From a virus: a stretch of DNA of 26,793 nucleotides. Location of the stretch: positions 1 to 26,793 of IMG/VR virus record IMGVR_UViG_3300031576_000253. One strand, written 5' to 3'. How positions within the stretch are numbered: the first letter of the stretch is position 1; each line of letters starts with the position of its first letter. Shown piece after piece: positions 8,408 to 26,387 of this stretch. The position numbers were made by a program, and so were the translations under genes. The notes under the pieces are model-generated. The model searched no databases and had not been told where the DNA came from. It saw nothing but the letters and a program-made list of their open reading frames with translations.

Positions 8408-8417
8408 GGTTTTGTTT

Positions 8418-8431
8418 CCTCTAAAGGCGTA
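8418..8431 (-). promoter_or_regulatory. Candidate phage promoter box for the virion operon
   Basis: Read on the minus strand this is TACGCCTTTAGAGG, preceded by 5 bases and then the operator palindrome. It is an exact inverted copy of the box at 8455-8468 and matches 11824-11837 and 14375-14388 in TACGCCTTWAGA. A TTTA followed by GAGG resembles the TATA/GGGA start region of T7-class promoters. Assignment to the phage polymerase is inference. Confidence 0.6.
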
Positions 8432-8436
8432 GGAAG

Positions 8437-8449
8437 GTCACTAAGTTAC
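8437..8449. promoter_or_regulatory. Operator palindrome between divergent promoter boxes
   Basis: GTCACTAAGTTAC, a near-perfect dyad (GTNACT-A-AGTNAC), centred between two inverted promoter boxes with 5 bases on each side. The same 13-mer recurs at 9288, 9342, 11788 and 14339. One bound dimer here would block both directions. The binding protein is not shown by sequence; the MarR-like regulator at 11255-11608 is the best candidate. Confidence 0.65.
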
Positions 8450-8454
8450 GTTCA

Positions 8455-8468
8455 TACGCCTTTAGAGG
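8455..8468 (+). promoter_or_regulatory. Candidate phage promoter box reading right
   Basis: TACGCCTTTAGAGG on the plus strand, 5 bases after the operator, with GTTCA as spacer exactly as at 11819-11823. It points toward a terminator 85 bases downstream, so its product may be a short RNA. Confidence 0.55.
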
Positions 8469-8594
8469 GAAGCGGAAAGCCAGCATATAGATTTAATACA
8501 GCTATAAAACGGTGTTTAACCTGTCTCCTTTCTCTACACACTCCTCATAGCAAAGGCAGTGCCCTCCTCACGGAGTCCACTGCCTTCTCTTTTT
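8465..8594 (+). ncRNA. Possible short phage RNA between promoter box and terminator
   Basis: A right-facing promoter box ends at 8468 and a strong terminator ends near 8594, with no credible gene between. A predicted RNA of about 130 nt would carry ACTCCTCAT (8540-8548) just before its terminator stem. That stretch is complementary to ATGAGGAGT at the ribosome sites of the genes starting at 9396 and 10378. Transcription and pairing are inferred; the complementary core is also a general anti-Shine-Dalgarno sequence. Confidence 0.35.
8553..8594 (+). terminator. Rho-independent terminator
   Basis: Perfect 9-bp arms AAGGCAGTG (8553-8561) and CACTGCCTT (8578-8586) are followed by CTCTTTTTCTTT. 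Direction is plus. Confidence 0.8.
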
Positions 8595-8744: not shown

Positions 8745-8966
8745 AAACCTGTAAACCATTGAATATACTGGGATACAGGCATATACACCACCACCATAAA
8801 AACAAGAGATTCCCCAGTTTTTCCACAGTTGGCCCGGTAAACTAGCTATTCCCAAGCATCCTAGCCCTGTCATTCTAACCCGGATTTTTTATCCGCATTC
8901 ATTTCCCTTATCTATTGTTTGAGGGTGTATAGCTATAACTCAATAGGGACAATGGTTTACAGGTTT
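8745..8966. repeat. Perfect 17-bp inverted repeat 188 bases apart
   Basis: The arm at 8745-8761 (AAACCTGTAAACCATTG) is the exact reverse complement of 8950-8966. A related sequence, CAATGGGTTACA, is at 9008-9019. The enclosed DNA includes a DnaA-box-like TTTTCCACA (8819-8827). Confidence 0.75.
8811..8830. repeat. Tandem TCCNCAGTT site, copy 1
   Basis: TCCCCAGTTTTTCCACAGTT: two direct TCCNCAGTT units at 11-bp period. It matches three sites in and next to the second recombinase gene about 17 kb away (25836, 25866, 26125). The overlap with a DnaA-box consensus (TTTTCCACA) is an alternative reading. Confidence 0.6.
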
Positions 8967-9283: not shown

Positions 9284-9287
9284 GAAG

Positions 9288-9318
9288 GTAACTAAGTTAC
9301 AGTCTTTCAATAAGTGAC
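9288..9318. promoter_or_regulatory. Operator pair O1 of the early operon
   Basis: GTAACTAAGTTAC (9288-9300), a perfect 6-bp-arm dyad, with a partner 18 bp downstream (9306-9318) retaining a full AGTGAC half-site. Confidence 0.65.
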
Positions 9319-9341
9319 TTTCTTTTTTTATCCCAAAGACG

Positions 9342-9372
9342 GTAACTAAGTGACCTTCTGTAAGAAAGTGAC
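9342..9372. promoter_or_regulatory. Operator pair O2 of the early operon
   Basis: GTAACTAAGTGAC (9342-9354) with GTAAGAAAGTGAC 18 bp downstream (9360-9372). The first lies in a 32-base block, including a T7 run, repeated with one mismatch at 11769-11800 before the RNA polymerase gene. The pair ends just before the ribosome site of the ArdC-like gene. Confidence 0.65.
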
Positions 9373-9395
9373 GTAACCAATGAGGAGTACAACCC

Positions 9396-10377: not shown

Positions 10378-10773
10378 ATGAACGCAGTCTATGAACAGGA
10401 TATGTATTACCGCTTCAACCCCTTTGCCAAAAACTGGATCGCTACCAGTGGCGTTATGAACTACTGCGAAAGAAACAAATGCTTTTGGGTGTTGGATACC
10501 TTGGCCTCTTACGTGCCAACCCTCGCCAAGGAAAAAGGCGTTGACTATTGCCTCATCGTAACCGTTGAAGTCAGCCCGGATCAAAAGGCTGTTTTCAAAA
10601 TTACCCAGGAAGAGCATGACGAGGAAGGCAACAGCGCCGATAAGACCCTGATCCGTCAGGACATCGACTATACAGACCTCAAAGAGGGTTTGAAGTTCTG
10701 GGCCATCAACGAGACGAGCGGAAGCTATGATCCCACGGCTCAAACCGTGGTTTTGCTCCCGGATGAATATTAA
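10378..10773 (+). CDS. DUF6876-like protein
   Basis: A protein of 131 aa. A segment YYRFNPFAKNWIATSGVMNY is followed by CERNKCFWVLDTLASYVP, matching the pattern of DUF6876 (a fish-out of a Tyr/Phe, 'GV..', then W-LLD--A). These proteins are often found beside ArdC-like genes on phages and plasmids; function unknown. The rest alternates beta-like segments with acidic loops. The ribosome site ATGAGGAGT is identical to that of the ArdC-like gene. An immunity- or antirestriction-related role is guilt by association only. Confidence 0.6.
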   Translation: MNAVYEQDMYYRFNPFAKNWIATSGVMNYCERNKCFWVLDTLASYVPTLAKEKGVDYCLIVTVEVSPDQKAVFKITQEEHDEEGNSADKTLIRQDIDYTDLKEGLKFWAINETSGSYDPTAQTVVLLPDEY

Positions 10774-10782
10774 CCCGTCGAA

Positions 10783-10821
10783 ACCGGCTTTGGCCGGTCG
10801 AGCGGGGATAGGCTACCGCTC
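10783..10821 (+). other. Two adjacent GC-rich hairpins
   Basis: ACCGGC-TTTG-GCCGGT (10783-10798) is directly followed by GAGCGG...CCGCTC (10800-10821), both perfect 6-bp stems, in the spacer after the DUF6876-like gene. No T-run, so partial termination or RNA processing is uncertain. Confidence 0.45.
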
Positions 10822-10856
10822 CTGATGAGACAGCCTGAACAAGAGGAGTTTTTAAA

Positions 10857-11787: not shown

Positions 11788-11818
11788 GTAACTAAGTGAC
11801 AGTCATTCCGATAGTTAC
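11788..11818. promoter_or_regulatory. Operator pair upstream of the RNA polymerase gene
   Basis: GTAACTAAGTGAC (11788-11800) and, 18 bp downstream, a half-site ending AGTTAC (11806-11818). The outer halves also form a GTAACTA/TAGTTAC dyad. The partner abuts the promoter box by 5 bases. Confidence 0.65.
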
Positions 11819-11823
11819 GTTCA

Positions 11824-11837
11824 TACGCCTTAAGAAC
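11824..11837 (+). promoter_or_regulatory. Candidate promoter box of the RNA polymerase gene
   Basis: TACGCCTTAAGAAC, with spacer GTTCA identical to that at 8450-8454. If it is a phage-polymerase promoter, the polymerase gene is self-activating. No sigma70 elements are evident here. Confidence 0.55.
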
Positions 11838-11880
11838 CAGGGCAACGGTGCATGCAGAGGTAACACAAGGAGGCAATGTC

Positions 11881-14334
11881 ATGACAAACCTGAACGTGCA
11901 ATCCAAACATGATCAACAGCTACAACTTGAAGAGGAAATGATCGGAGCCGGTATCGCCCGGTATCGAAACGATCTTGCCAAGGCCGCCACCAAGGATTTA
12001 CAAGCGTCAACAAAGGCCGGTCTTAAGATTTTAAAAAACACGCTACAACCTCTAACCAAGGCTATCGAAACATTTATACAGCCCTCCAAGGGCGTGAGGG
12101 TTCCCAAGACGCATTACTATCTGGGCTTGCTGGATGCTGAAAGCATTGCGTTTATCACCCTGAAATCCGTGTTGAATAGCATCACCAAACGGGTGACTCT
12201 CACCAAGGCAGCTTTGGATATAGGGGAGTTAATCGAAGATGAAACGAGACTCCGGTACTTTGAGAAAAGAGACCCGAAGCTCTACCAGCAAATCCATAAC
12301 AAGGTTAAGAACAAATCATCCTACGATCACAAGCGAACGGTTTTTGTTCACTACATGAACAAGAATGAAATCGAGTGGACACCGTGGCCCAAGTCCGACA
12401 AGCTGCGACTGGGCGAGGATTGTATCCACATCCTGATTCAATCGACCCGTCTGGCTGAAATTCTCATGAAGGGCGATGGCCGCTATTACATCACGGCAAC
12501 GGAGGAAACACTTCACTGGTTCGAGAAAGAAAACAAGCTCTGTGAAGTGCTATCCCCTTCGTTTTACCCGATGGTGATTGAGCCAAGGGACTGGACTTCC
12601 CCAACCGAAGGCGGGTATCTCACCAACATTAACCGACAAGTGCGTCTGGTAAAAACGTACAACAAGCCCTACCTGGAAGAGTTGAAAAACGTTCCCATGC
12701 CGCTGGTTTATCAGGCGATTAACCATCTCCAGAAAACGCCCTGGAAAATCAATCAACAGGTTCTCACGGTAGCCGATGCCTTGTGGGACGTTGATTCCGA
12801 AATAGCCAACCTGCCCCCAAGGGACGATTCCCAACCACGCCCCTGTCCTTTCCCTTCCGACTTGAACCCAAAGGACATGACACCCTCCCAGTTCGAGATT
12901 TTTATTGACTGGAAGAGAGAGGCGGCACGGATTTATGAAAACAATATCACCAACCGTTCCAAGCGTTTGCTGGTCAGCAAGGTGCTGTATCTGGCCCACA
13001 AGTTCAAGGATGAAGCCCGGATTTACTTTCCCCACATGCTCGATTTCCGGGGCCGGGTATATGCCATTCCCCATTTCTTAAACCCGCAAAGCACCGATCT
13101 TTCCAAAGCACTGTTGACCTTCGCCAATGGAAAGCCGATTACCAACGAAACGGCGGGAAACTGGCTTGCCATTCATGGGGCCAATGTCTATGGCTACGAT
13201 AAAGTCAGTCTGGAAGAGCGTGTTCAGTTCATCCATCGGATGCAAGACACCATTCTCGCCATAGCGGATGACCCATTTGGTTATCGGAAATGGACAGAAG
13301 CGGATAAGCCCTGGCAGTTTCTCGCCTTCTGTTTTGAATGGGCCGGATACCTGAAAGAGGGTTACGGGTACGTTTCCCACTTGCCCATTGCGTTGGATGG
13401 CAGTTGCAACGGTCTTCAGCATTTCAGCGCCATGTTGCGCGATCATATCGGCGGCGAGGCGGTCAATTTAATCCCCAGCGACAAGCCACAAGACATATAC
13501 CAACGTGTGGCCGATGTGGTTATCGAAAAACTAAAAAACGATGATTCCAAACTGGCCCGTCAGTGGCTTGAATTTGGCATTGACCGGAAGATCACGAAAC
13601 GCCCTGTCATGATTCTCCCCTATGGTGGAACCCGTCAGGCATGCCGGGAATACATCGAAGAGCATATATGGGAATCTCTGCATGCCGGTCAATCCAACCT
13701 CTTTGCCGAAGGCGACAAATCCAACATCTTTGAAGCGTCCCTCTATTTGGCGGGGCTTGTCTGGGACAGCATCGGCGAGGTTGTTGTCGCGGCCCGTGGG
13801 GTTATGGGGTGGCTTCGCAAGGCAGCCAGCCTTGCCGCCAAGGAAGGGCTTCCGGTCAACTGGACGAGTCCTTCCGGCTTTCCCGTTCAGCAAGCCTATC
13901 ATGAAGTCCGCTTTCGCCAACTCAAAACCCAGTTGAACGGAAACATTCTCAAACCCATTCAACATACCCTTCAGGAGTACACGGACGCGATAGACAAGCG
14001 CCGCCAATCGGACGGCATTTCTCCGAACTTTGTTCACTCGATGGATGCCGCCGCCCTCCACCTGTATGTCAACCGGGCGGTGGATCGGTATGACCTTGAA
14101 TCGTTCTGTCTTGTCCATGACAGTTACGGCACACTGGCGGCTGATACAGAGCTTTCAGCCCAGTGCATCCGGGAAGTTTTCGTGGAGATGTACCAGGACG
14201 ACGTACTGGAGGACTTCCGAACGCAACTGCTTGATTTGATCTCGTCCCGAAACGCCAACAAGCTGCCCTTGGTTCCGCCCAAAGGCAAGCTGGATTTGGA
14301 GGTGGTCAAGCAAAGCGCCTTTTTCTTCGCCTAG
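11881..14334 (+). CDS. T7-type single-subunit DNA-directed RNA polymerase
   Basis: A protein of 817 aa (T7 gp1 is 883). The start at 11881 has AAGGAGG 6 bases upstream; an in-frame ATG at 11848 lacks this. Diagnostic motifs are LDGSCNGLQHFSAMLRD (motif A, catalytic Asp), KRPVMILPYGGTRQACREY (motif B, Lys and Tyr), SPNFVHSMDAAALH, LVHDSYGT (motif C, catalytic Asp) and the C-terminal FFFA foot. It transcribes middle and late phage genes from its own promoters. The gene lies alone between insulating terminators with an operator pair and box upstream, and a second operator-plus-box cassette begins 5 bases after its stop. Confidence 0.97.
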   Translation: MTNLNVQSKHDQQLQLEEEMIGAGIARYRNDLAKAATKDLQASTKAGLKILKNTLQPLTKAIETFIQPSKGVRVPKTHYYLGLLDAESIAFITLKSVLNSITKRVTLTKAALDIGELIEDETRLRYFEKRDPKLYQQIHNKVKNKSSYDHKRTVFVHYMNKNEIEWTPWPKSDKLRLGEDCIHILIQSTRLAEILMKGDGRYYITATEETLHWFEKENKLCEVLSPSFYPMVIEPRDWTSPTEGGYLTNINRQVRLVKTYNKPYLEELKNVPMPLVYQAINHLQKTPWKINQQVLTVADALWDVDSEIANLPPRDDSQPRPCPFPSDLNPKDMTPSQFEIFIDWKREAARIYENNITNRSKRLLVSKVLYLAHKFKDEARIYFPHMLDFRGRVYAIPHFLNPQSTDLSKALLTFANGKPITNETAGNWLAIHGANVYGYDKVSLEERVQFIHRMQDTILAIADDPFGYRKWTEADKPWQFLAFCFEWAGYLKEGYGYVSHLPIALDGSCNGLQHFSAMLRDHIGGEAVNLIPSDKPQDIYQRVADVVIEKLKNDDSKLARQWLEFGIDRKITKRPVMILPYGGTRQACREYIEEHIWESLHAGQSNLFAEGDKSNIFEASLYLAGLVWDSIGEVVVAARGVMGWLRKAASLAAKEGLPVNWTSPSGFPVQQAYHEVRFRQLKTQLNGNILKPIQHTLQEYTDAIDKRRQSDGISPNFVHSMDAAALHLYVNRAVDRYDLESFCLVHDSYGTLAADTELSAQCIREVFVEMYQDDVLEDFRTQLLDLISSRNANKLPLVPPKGKLDLEVVKQSAFFFA

Positions 14335-14338
14335 CTAG

Positions 14339-14369
14339 GTAACTAAGTGACAGTCATTCCAATAGTTAC
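14339..14369. promoter_or_regulatory. Operator pair upstream of the replication operon
   Basis: GTAACTAAGTGAC (14339-14351) with a half-site ending AGTTAC 18 bp on (14357-14369). The whole cassette 14338-14388 differs from 11787-11837 at only a few bases. Confidence 0.65.
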
Positions 14370-14374
14370 TTTTA

Positions 14375-14388
14375 TACGCCTTAAGAAC
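14375..14388 (+). promoter_or_regulatory. Candidate promoter box of the replication operon
   Basis: TACGCCTTAAGAAC, identical to 11824-11837, 20 bases before the first gene of the operon. Confidence 0.55.
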
Positions 14389-23586: not shown

Positions 23587-23922
23587 ATGTCAGAGAAAAA
23601 AGCCCTCCGCTTCAATGCGGGGAAATTGCGCTGGGAACTTTTGCCGGTCGAATGGCAAGAGGAACTGGTCAAGGTTTTCACCAAAGGGGCCATCAAGTAC
23701 GAAGCCAATAACTGGCAACGCTCCATAGGGACGGATGACGCCGAACAGTTCAAGCAAGACCGTATCGGTTCCGCCTTGCGGCATATTGCCGCCTACCGAA
23801 AGGGTGAACGGGTTGACCCGGAAGTTGTTGTTGGGGCGGAAGGCATTCCCACCTACCACCTCGCCCATGCCGCCTGGAACTTGCTGGCAATTCTCTATTA
23901 TGACCTGAAGGAAGGGTTGTAA
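23587..23922 (+). CDS. DUF5664 family protein (dATP/dGTP diphosphohydrolase-like)
   Basis: A protein of 111 aa. RFNAGKLRWELLP then FTKGAIKYEANNW and RIGSALRHIAAYRKGERVDPE and HLAHAAWNLLAILYYDL: the DUF5664 layout with conserved GA.KY..NNW, R-H and H-AH--WN. Family members are MazG-like nucleotide pyrophosphohydrolases, and one lineage (MazZ) occurs in 2-aminoadenine phages. No PurZ is visible here, so general dNTP-pool control is the conservative reading. The stop overlaps the next ATG (TAATG). Confidence 0.85.
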   Translation: MSEKKALRFNAGKLRWELLPVEWQEELVKVFTKGAIKYEANNWQRSIGTDDAEQFKQDRIGSALRHIAAYRKGERVDPEVVVGAEGIPTYHLAHAAWNLLAILYYDLKEGL

Positions 23923-24842
23923 TGTCTAGCGCTCAAAAGCACATTGATTTTATAACCCTCTGGCAACAGGCAATGGCTACCGGGTTAATGGATGGCAGGC
24001 CATTTAGCCCGCATACGCAACAGTGTTACCGATATTACGTGACGGAGTTTTTGAAAAGGCATGACAATGTATCTTTTGAGACCCTGCGGGCCGAACTGGT
24101 TTCCATTCCTATTGAACATTTTGCCAAAAAGGATGAGATTTACAGGAGCATTATTTCCTTTTCAAAATTGTTGATTGGCGAAGGTGCCCTTGACAAGTCA
24201 TTTCTGGAAAGGGCAAAAGCTATACGGCCCAAGAGACACCAGGAACCCAAACGCCTCACCGTCAAGGAAGCCGATATTGGGAAGTTAATCAGCGTATGTA
24301 AGAGACCCCTGGATCGGTTAATCATTATTCTTCTGGCCTCAACAGGTCTACGTGCCTCGGAAGCCTGCTCTTTGAAGTTGAGGGATATAGACCTTCAAGA
24401 ACGTAAAATCCATCTCTACAAAGGCAAATGGGGGAAGTCTCGAAGGGTTGGAATTACGGAAGGACTGTATGAAGCCTTAATGGAATACCTGAAATTACGC
24501 GAAACCCTTAACCCTAATGATCCTTTGCTCATCAATCAGGACGGCCAGCCAATGGACAGGAGCGGTATCTACAAGCGCCTCCAAAAGCTAGGGCGCAAGG
24601 CTGGTGTTCAAGTCAGTCCTCACGCCCTGAGACGAGCTTTCGTTACTATTAACGTCGGGAATGGCATCCCATTGGTTTATCTCCAATTGGCCTGCGGTCA
24701 TTCCGACATCAAAACTACCCGTGACTATTGCCAAACCTCGGAAGACGAGGTTATTGAAGCAATGAAGACACGGTTTGCCAATTTTTCATTGACTCAACCA
24801 CCTCCTTCTCCGATGTCCGATCATAACGCAGCATTGTCTTAA
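23922..24842 (+). CDS. Tyrosine recombinase, integrase-like (recombinase 1)
   Basis: A protein of 306 aa, Xer-like size. Core-binding domain about 8-110; catalytic residues R144 (STGLR), K172 (GKWGKSRR), H234-R237 (HALRR), H260 (CGHSD) and Y269 (RDYCQTS). It lacks a separate N-terminal arm-binding domain. It is the last gene of the long replication operon, so it is made with lytic genes. Its 3' end overlaps the convergent recombinase 2 gene by 92 bases. The two proteins are clearly related through most of their catalytic domains (LLASTG-R, KW-K-RRVG, YRSVI/YRSII). Confidence 0.9.
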   Translation: MSSAQKHIDFITLWQQAMATGLMDGRPFSPHTQQCYRYYVTEFLKRHDNVSFETLRAELVSIPIEHFAKKDEIYRSIISFSKLLIGEGALDKSFLERAKAIRPKRHQEPKRLTVKEADIGKLISVCKRPLDRLIIILLASTGLRASEACSLKLRDIDLQERKIHLYKGKWGKSRRVGITEGLYEALMEYLKLRETLNPNDPLLINQDGQPMDRSGIYKRLQKLGRKAGVQVSPHALRRAFVTINVGNGIPLVYLQLACGHSDIKTTRDYCQTSEDEVIEAMKTRFANFSLTQPPPSPMSDHNAALS

Positions 24843-25899
24843 TATCGGCCCAACCTCCGGCCTTTTGAACTTTCTTTGGGTTTTCCCCGTGGTTCAGGTT
24901 GAATGTCACAAACCGGCGACGGAACGAATGAGGTGGGGCTGCCACGCCAACATCTTCTGCAATCCGGGTTATCCGGTGATAAACGCCCCACCGTCCCATG
25001 TTCTGTTTAAACCGGCTTAAGAAAAGGCCGTTGGCCTTAACAACGGGCCTTTCCTCAAGATGTTCCCGAATGACCCTAGCTGTTTCCAAGCAAAAGCCAA
25101 CTCGCCGGGTTTTGTCCCACTTGCAATCCCGAAGGAGAATTTCCTGGTTATCCAAATCCAGGTCATCCAGGGTCAAGGTGGCACACTCATTTGAACGAAT
25201 GCCGGTGGAGGCCAGCAAAAGGAGCATGGCTTTTTCCTGTTTGGTTTTACAACCAGAAAGCATCTTTTTCAGGTTTTCATCCGAGATAATCGGCTGTTCC
25301 GGGTTCTTATTCGGCTCAGGCCGCATTTCCTTCCGCATCATTTTCTCCAGAACAGCGATTTCCATTATCTCTTCCTCCACAAGGTACTTGGAAAAACAGA
25401 TAACCGAACGATAGATAAAGACTTGCTTATCCGGGGTTTCAGGATATTTAACCAACTCAGAGGATAGAACCTTGCTATTGATGGCCTGATGGGTTTTAAG
25501 GAACTTTTCCACATAGCCAACATAGGTATTGATGGTGTTTTCGCTGAATTTCCAACGGTAGATAAGGCCAGCCCGCATGGTTTGCTTCCATCCTGGGATA
25601 AAGGTGCTTAAATCCTCTATCTGTTTTTTTGCCCGTTTCACTGGCATAGCAAGAGCCTGTTGCCCTTTCACAAAGACTTCCACCGCCTGGGGAGTTATCT
25701 GGTAGGTAACGGTCTTGCCATAGGGCTTAGGAGTGGCAGCCAGTTTTCCGGTTTTGCACCAGTCTATAATTGTTTTCTTATCTTTACAAAGAACCTTAGA
25801 AACCTCTTGAGGGTTAAGGAAGGGCTGTGAAATACTCCTCAGTTTTTCCACAGTTTCGTTAAAATTCCCCAGTTTTTCCTCAGTTTTGATATACTTCAT
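24751..25899 (-). CDS. Tyrosine recombinase with N-terminal excisionase-like HTH (recombinase 2)
   Basis: A protein of 382 aa. The N-terminus (about 25-80) reads FLNPQEVSKVLCKDKKTIIDWCK then a KPYGKTVTYQITPQAVEVFVKG wing, the HTH_17/Xis-type fold. A core-binding domain follows (100-195). Catalytic residues: R235 (STGIR), K263 (KWDKTRR), H324-R327 (HSFRR), W350 (GGWAD) in place of His, Y359 (LRYDRTS). It could act as integrase, excisionase or both. GGGAG precedes the ATG, within a predicted switchable hairpin. The first 20 codons contain two tandem repeat sites. Confidence 0.9.
   Translation of the reverse strand: MKYIKTEEKLGNFNETVEKLRSISQPFLNPQEVSKVLCKDKKTIIDWCKTGKLAATPKPYGKTVTYQITPQAVEVFVKGQQALAMPVKRAKKQIEDLSTFIPGWKQTMRAGLIYRWKFSENTINTYVGYVEKFLKTHQAINSKVLSSELVKYPETPDKQVFIYRSVICFSKYLVEEEIMEIAVLEKMMRKEMRPEPNKNPEQPIISDENLKKMLSGCKTKQEKAMLLLLASTGIRSNECATLTLDDLDLDNQEILLRDCKWDKTRRVGFCLETARVIREHLEERPVVKANGLFLSRFKQNMGRWGVYHRITRIAEDVGVAAPPHSFRRRFVTFNLNHGENPKKVQKAGGWADIKTMLRYDRTSEKEVVESMKNWQTVSSLLQ
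25836..25855. repeat. Tandem TCCNCAGTT site, copy 2
   Basis: TCCTCAGTTTTTCCACAGTT inside the N-terminal coding region of recombinase 2; starts 30 bp from copy 3, about three helical turns. Confidence 0.65.
25866..25885. repeat. Tandem TCCNCAGTT site, copy 3
   Basis: TCCCCAGTTTTTCCTCAGTT, within codons 5-11 of recombinase 2. Confidence 0.65.
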
Positions 25900-25900
25900 G

Positions 25901-26069
25901 GTGAGTCTCCCGTCTTTAACTAAAGTCGGAAACTCACGTATTTATTGGGCTGTACTGGTTTTCCTTCCTTAAAACCCCTGTTCTGGGAGCATACTTCACA
26001 CGTATGATGCCAAAACCCCAGAAATGGAAAGGAGAAAAAGCCTGAAACCCTCAATAGGGGTGAGTTTCC
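25901..26069 (-). promoter_or_regulatory. Candidate riboregulatory leader of recombinase 2
   Basis: Three 10-base segments in the minus-strand leader: A GGAAACTCAC (26069-26060), B GTGAGTTTCC (25937-25928) and C GGAGACTCAC (25910-25901), the last with the ribosome site and touching the start codon. B pairs perfectly with A, or with C with 9 Watson-Crick pairs and one G-U. B:C closes a hairpin with inner CTTT/AAAG pairs and hides the ribosome site. No known riboswitch class is recognised. Confidence 0.55.
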
Positions 26070-26087
26070 AGTAACTCGAACATGCCC

Positions 26088-26115
26088 ATTATAGACCATG
26101 TTTTTGAGTTGTCCA
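26088..26115 (-). promoter_or_regulatory. Sigma70-type promoter for recombinase 2
   Basis: On the minus strand TGGACA (-35, one mismatch) and TATAAT (perfect -10) are separated by 16 bases. The predicted start near 26081 gives a leader of about 180 nt. An operator-like half-site (AGTTAC on the minus strand, 26071-26076) lies at about +5, and copy 4 of the tandem site is 10 bases upstream of -35. Confidence 0.75.
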
Positions 26116-26144: not shown

Positions 26145-26157
26145 AGATGAATAGCAT

Positions 26158-26230
26158 GGGCAATTGGCGCAGTTGGTAGCGCACCACATTCACATTGTGG
26201 GGGTCACTGGTTCGAGTCCAGTATTGCCCA
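26158..26230 (+). tRNA. tRNA-Val(CAC)
   Basis: It is 73 nt with acceptor GGGCAAT/ATTGCCC, a normal D-arm (GGCGCAGTTGGTAGCGC), anticodon stem CCACA/TGTGG with loop TTCACAT (anticodon CAC, Val), variable loop and T-arm CTGG-TTCGAGT-CCAG. Discriminator A; CCA is not encoded. A T6 run follows. It is the likely landmark of the prophage edge, but the phage lies on its 5' side, which is not the usual arrangement for tRNA integration. Confidence 0.95.
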
Positions 26231-26387
26231 TTTTTTGCTTTTTATAGCCGAAAGTAAAGTCAGAACAACTCCCCAGACTTGCCTTCAATCTGTAGGCGGG
26301 TTATATATCCCTCTACGTTTACCTGCGATATACTTGTTTGTGAGGTAAAATTGATGTTTTTAGCGTTTTCGGGAAGTAATCTGGCTT

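Follow-up and report, generated by a model that had tools for sequence, protein, structure and literature searches.

Three copies of a 10-bp site, here called segments A, B and C, lie between the start codon of a tyrosine recombinase gene and a tRNA-Val gene at the right end of a phage genome. Our leading, though tentative, interpretation is that they are protein-binding repeats in the attachment/autoregulatory region of that recombinase (recombinase 2). Reading the repeats as DNA sites explains them at least as well as the RNA switch in the recombinase 2 leader that had originally been predicted from the same letters.

The window, that is, the whole stretch of 26,793 nt analyzed, is a 26.8-kb viral record of a T7-like phage in which head, nozzle and DNA polymerase genes are present. 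Its RNA polymerase gene (11848-14334) encodes a product 39-43% identical to the enzymes of T7-like phages such as LUZ100, an integrase carrier and one of the few temperate T7-like phages studied (PMC10134795). The right end of the window holds two convergent tyrosine recombinases, a tRNA-Val(CAC) gene and a truncated cytosine methyltransferase gene, of which the following features are relevant here.

23922-24842, plus strand: recombinase 1, a tyrosine recombinase convergent with recombinase 2 and sharing 37% identity with it
24751-25899, minus strand: recombinase 2, a tyrosine recombinase of 382 aa, catalytic domain at residues 207-364
25663-25821, minus strand: HTH_17 domain at the N-terminus of recombinase 2 (residues 27-79), excisionase/BldC-like
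26157-26231, plus strand: tRNA-Val(CAC), a candidate integration target or captured tRNA

The recombinase 2 gene runs leftward from an ATG at 25899-25897, and its 3′ end overlaps that of recombinase 1 by about 90 bases (24751-24842). An excisionase-like HTH_17 domain is joined to the N-terminus of recombinase 2; residues 27-79 scored 24.9 bits against HTH_17, slightly under the curated cut-off of 27, and the BldC match was weak. The structure prediction for the protein (pLDDT 46) was too poor for use. About 257 bp, the size of an attachment region, separate the recombinase 2 gene from the tRNA gene, whose 5′ end faces the recombinase; the usual prophage side is the tRNA 3′ end, which here is opposite. 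Elsewhere in the window, a Type II hammerhead ribozyme match on the plus strand (10776-10839; 41.4 bits, above the Rfam gathering score) directly follows a DUF6876 gene (10378-10773).

The repeats at the start of recombinase 2, together with its ribosome site, are arranged as follows.

26060-26069, minus strand: segment A, GGAAACTCAC (GTGAGTTTCC on the plus strand), an exact inverse of B and a direct near-copy of C
25928-25937, minus strand: segment B, GTGAGTTTCC
25901-25910, minus strand: segment C, GGAGACTCAC, overlapping the ribosome site and ending 1 nt before the ATG
25907-25911, minus strand: GGGAG, the recombinase 2 ribosome-binding site, with 7 nt between it and the ATG

Letters and coordinates bear out the original prediction that A and C differ at a single base and both pair with B. 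C was also said to contain the ribosome site and to abut the start codon, and it does cover GGGAG except for the first G and ends one base short of the ATG. A and B form 10 of 10 possible Watson-Crick pairs, with an 11th at 26070:25927; B and C form 10 pairs, one of them G.U, the single differing base of C still being paired. Taken as a DNA site, the three copies read GTGAGTYTCC in mixed orientation with spacings of 27 and 132 bp. Aligned directly, A and C are identical at 12 of 14 nt, the match extending to neighboring bases that play no part in pairing with B.

Dinucleotide shuffling of the 184-nt leader (120,000 shuffles) reproduced the triple over the ribosome site 5 times and at any position 23 times, whereas 1,851 shuffled leaders had the ribosome site covered by a 10-bp helix. 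The A/B/C triple is unlikely to be due to chance; the B:C hairpin alone could be. That the whole coincidence merely reflects scanning 26.8 kb for patterns is thus very unlikely: helices of the B:C type turn up over the ribosome site in 1.5% of shuffles, and many types of pattern might have been noticed, but the triple itself has a probability of 4e-5 per leader, or below about 0.002 allowing for the roughly 30-40 gene starts in the window. To the right of the tRNA gene, no A/B/C copy was found at ≤1 mismatch, as expected if the right flank is host DNA.

Repeats of another kind, AGTTACKTTYATACGCCTTWAGA and GGTAACTAAGTGAC..., occur upstream of operons at 8444-8466, 11813-11835 and 14364-14386 (also 9286-9375), and at 8415-8471 they make a 28-bp inverted repeat. 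These are possibly the phage RNA polymerase's own promoters. The same role was considered for A/B/C and rejected: AGTTACKTTYATACGCCTTWAGA (8444, 11813, 14364) fits it, and A/B/C have no exact copy elsewhere in the window.

The area around the recombinase 2 start also carries members of a second repeat family, separate from A/B/C. The motif of this family, YTCCNYAGTTTTTCCNYAG, consists of two direct half-sites 11 bp apart and occurs exactly four times in the window, each time on the plus strand.

25835-25853, plus strand: tandem half-site motif YTCCNYAGTTTTTCCNYAG, copy 1, within recombinase 2 codons
25865-25883, plus strand: copy 2, within recombinase 2 codons
26124-26142, plus strand: copy 3, between the promoter described below and the tRNA gene
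8810-8828, plus strand: copy 4, in a 1-kb divergent control region

Four copies at ≤3 mismatches were reached in 0 of 100 shuffles, and two of the four fall outside coding sequence, which rules out a repeat at the protein level. The region around copy 4, about 1 kb long and largely non-coding, separates divergent structural and early operons; a 42-nt imperfect inverted repeat (8745-8786 and 8925-8966, sharing AAACCTGTAAACCATTG) lies on either side of this copy. HTH_17 proteins of the Xis/BldC/RdfS kind sit head-to-tail on direct repeats about one helical turn apart (PMC7498355; PMC11963761), as described for the BldC-like/HTH_17 class (PMC11963761; PMC5859096), and Apl of phage 186 binds such repeats at its early promoters as well as at att (PMC7498355). 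The tandem motif (YTCCNYAG) shows the layout of an operator array of this type, with direct repeats one helical turn apart at the att/int and early control regions. Recombinase 2 may thus plausibly recognize the motif at both places through its N-terminal domain. A host factor may be involved instead: the motif has 52 exact matches in viral_contigs, about the chance level, and since a few of these sit in tandem arrays resembling DnaA boxes (TTTTCCACA), binding of DnaA-like boxes is possible.

A protein-DNA control and attachment region would be expected to contain direct and inverted repeats of 10-19 bp. The span up to the tRNA gene resembles such a region, and A/B/C fit there as a further family of sites. 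The binder would most likely be a recombinase, using them as arm-type sites, or a phage regulator; once bound, the protein would shape the recombination complex, repress the recombinase 2 promoter and start, or both. The ability of the leader to fold as B:C or A:B would then follow from one site being present in both orientations, and the B:C hairpin may modestly lower translation. We infer the identity of the binder, the presence of an attachment site and the effect on expression. This DNA-site reading is favored by repeats beyond chance, by an A-C match that takes in bases not pairing with B, and by the presence of three of the four YTCCNYAGTTTTTCCNYAG copies in the same region and of the fourth in the divergent control region. 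This placement follows the scheme of 186 Apl (PMC7498355), whose sites likewise occupy both att and the switch as direct repeats with a spacing of one helical turn, and the N-terminus of recombinase 2 resembles HTH_17/BldC, a class that binds such repeats. However, the A/B/C motif differs from the tandem motif and is in mixed orientation, its binder is putative, and nothing in DNA-site logic requires C to fall exactly over the ribosome site. Moreover, no attachment core was found, the best upstream match to the tRNA being 8 bp (chance level), and the contig lacks the other prophage end.

We then considered the same segments as RNA, in a leader that would begin at the promoter and could adopt either of two hairpins.

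26088-26115, minus strand: TGGACA-16-TATAAT, a sigma-70-like promoter reading leftward into recombinase 2
25901-25937, minus strand: B:C hairpin pairing the ribosome site, -16.4 kcal/mol
25927-26070, minus strand: long imperfect hairpin with the 11 A:B pairs at its base, able to fold on either strand, interior only marginally structured

The promoter proposed upstream of a leader of about 180 nt was recovered, matching at 11 of 12 positions; a promoter scan found 1 site against 1.1 expected. A 10-codon frame, MFELLETHPY, had been suggested to be translated leaderless from within this transcript. The frame exists, but its leaderless use is doubtful: A 26083 of its ATG is just 5 nt past the -10 box, the usual distance to a transcript start being 6-7 nt, and this ATG is for that reason possibly untranscribed. 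Starting transcription at the more usual G 26081 would drop the ATG altogether. No ribosome site was found ahead of the frame, and a leaderless peptide would be a weak candidate for triggering a switch.

The B:C hairpin is stable (z = -4.1), and among 577 other phage gene starts, taken from related and unrelated viral loci, 18 have hairpins of equal or greater stability. Its predicted inner CTTT/AAAG pairing is present in the sequence; with the arms kept and the loop shuffled, an equally stable hairpin formed in 50% of cases (p 0.50), and the inner pairing is therefore not special. The 146-nt span from A to B also folds well, with z of -3.6 and -3.9 on the two strands; once G+C is taken into account, only 4 of 732 tiles of the window score as low. 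The A and B arms account for most of this strength. With A and B kept and the 122-nt interior shuffled, the real interior was only marginally better on either strand (p 0.05-0.10). The B:C hairpin was ruled out as a terminator by its lack of a T run. An Rfam search of the leader gave no family above chance and no aptamer.

These folds bear on two further explanations. According to the RNA switch, which we regard as less likely than DNA sites but as a serious rival, A:B pairing comes first and keeps the ribosome site accessible until B:C replaces it and masks the site; recombinase 2 translation would be set by whatever tips this balance, be it a ribosome, a ligand or an antisense RNA. Exact alternative pairing over the ribosome site, rarely matched by shuffling, and the one changed base of C that keeps a G.U pair speak for such a switch. 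The Turner 2004, Turner 1999 and Andronescu parameters all place the two states within about 3 kcal/mol of each other, the forced A:B and B:C structures differing by 0-2 kcal/mol in minimum free energy; under Langdon parameters the difference reaches 5.9 kcal/mol. Prefix folding of the growing RNA gave A:B a probability of 0.99 until C emerged, after which B:C was favored (0.56-0.91 at longer ends). Alternative pairing is thus physically plausible. However, the claim that A:B frees the ribosome site held only in part: its mean unpaired probability rises from 0.28 with B:C to about 0.5-0.6 with A:B, and in longer transcripts the A:B fold leaves the AUG more paired. The loop and interior shuffles revealed no RNA signal past the repeats, and stability was similar on both strands, as the DNA-site reading would have it; the folds add nothing to the repeats, and the RNA switch is without independent support. 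The missing aptamer and the unconvincing leader peptide also count against it, as does the lack of homologues in viral_contigs and genome_contigs that could supply covariation. Protein, alignment and sub-domain searches of both collections found no relatives of recombinase 1 or 2 by scans that need an exact short-peptide match, so that relatives below about 60-70% identity could escape. Likewise, recombinase 2 was absent from 45 viral records with a related RNA polymerase, a host search by exact tRNA-Val pattern gave no match, and when the 541-bp region was compared with phage and plasmid DNA, the best among the matches listed covered the tRNA part only.

Simple translational damping, in which only B:C matters, recombinase 2 synthesis is kept low and A has no function in the RNA, agrees with the B:C probability of 0.8-0.93 for every transcript start tried, with or without A, and with the comparably stable hairpins at other phage gene starts. 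We consider it unlikely, however, as it leaves the exact copy A, whose match is beyond chance, unexplained. In a combined scheme, recombinase 2 would unite an excisionase-type domain with a tyrosine recombinase, bind its own promoter/attachment region and the divergent control region, and also be gated in its synthesis by a bistable leader built from repeats of that region. A single protein would then set the direction of recombination, its own level and the lytic/lysogenic balance of a temperate T7-like phage; we regard this scheme as improbable.

To our knowledge, little is known about the control of integration in temperate T7-like phages. Should the repeats prove to be operators or attachment sites, as we favor, the window would provide a concrete map of the places at which the recombinase is controlled. 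A genuine RNA switch would be an unusual way of regulating a phage integrase at the level of translation.

Finally, we compared the region with known systems. In an ermC-type translational attenuator, leader segments pair alternatively, the last covers the ribosome site, and a short frame overlaps the first. The A/B/C leader shares this overlap and, in silico, has mutually exclusive pairings of which one hides the ribosome site; unlike ermC, its leader peptide has no ribosome site, its ATG perhaps lies outside the transcript, and there is no known inducer. MFELLETHPY is not a convincing translatable leader peptide over the first segment. Another foldable leader beside a gene and overlapping a tyrosine recombinase site region is the supposed aminoglycoside riboswitch that coincides with an integron recombination site, which experiments ruled out, whereas the A/B/C leader was assessed in silico (PMC9410878). 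Because that riboswitch at an integration site proved wrong, we are cautious about the RNA switch; repeats in recombination regions can fold into convincing, possibly meaningless RNA switches (PMC9410878). Like the arm-type sites of lambda attP, A/B/C are 10-bp copies in both orientations between integrase and tRNA genes, although here no core was found, recombinase 2 is without a typical arm-binding domain, and no copies were found past the tRNA gene. The likeness to the arrays of phage 186 Apl, P2 Cox and lambda Xis concerns the YTCCNYAG motif, not A/B/C. Unlike in those systems, the HTH_17 domain here is fused to the recombinase, and the putative sites are half-site pairs rather than runs of five to seven. 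Nonetheless, both share an HTH_17-type domain, direct half-sites about one helical turn apart, and sites at the integrase/attachment and early control regions (PMC7498355).
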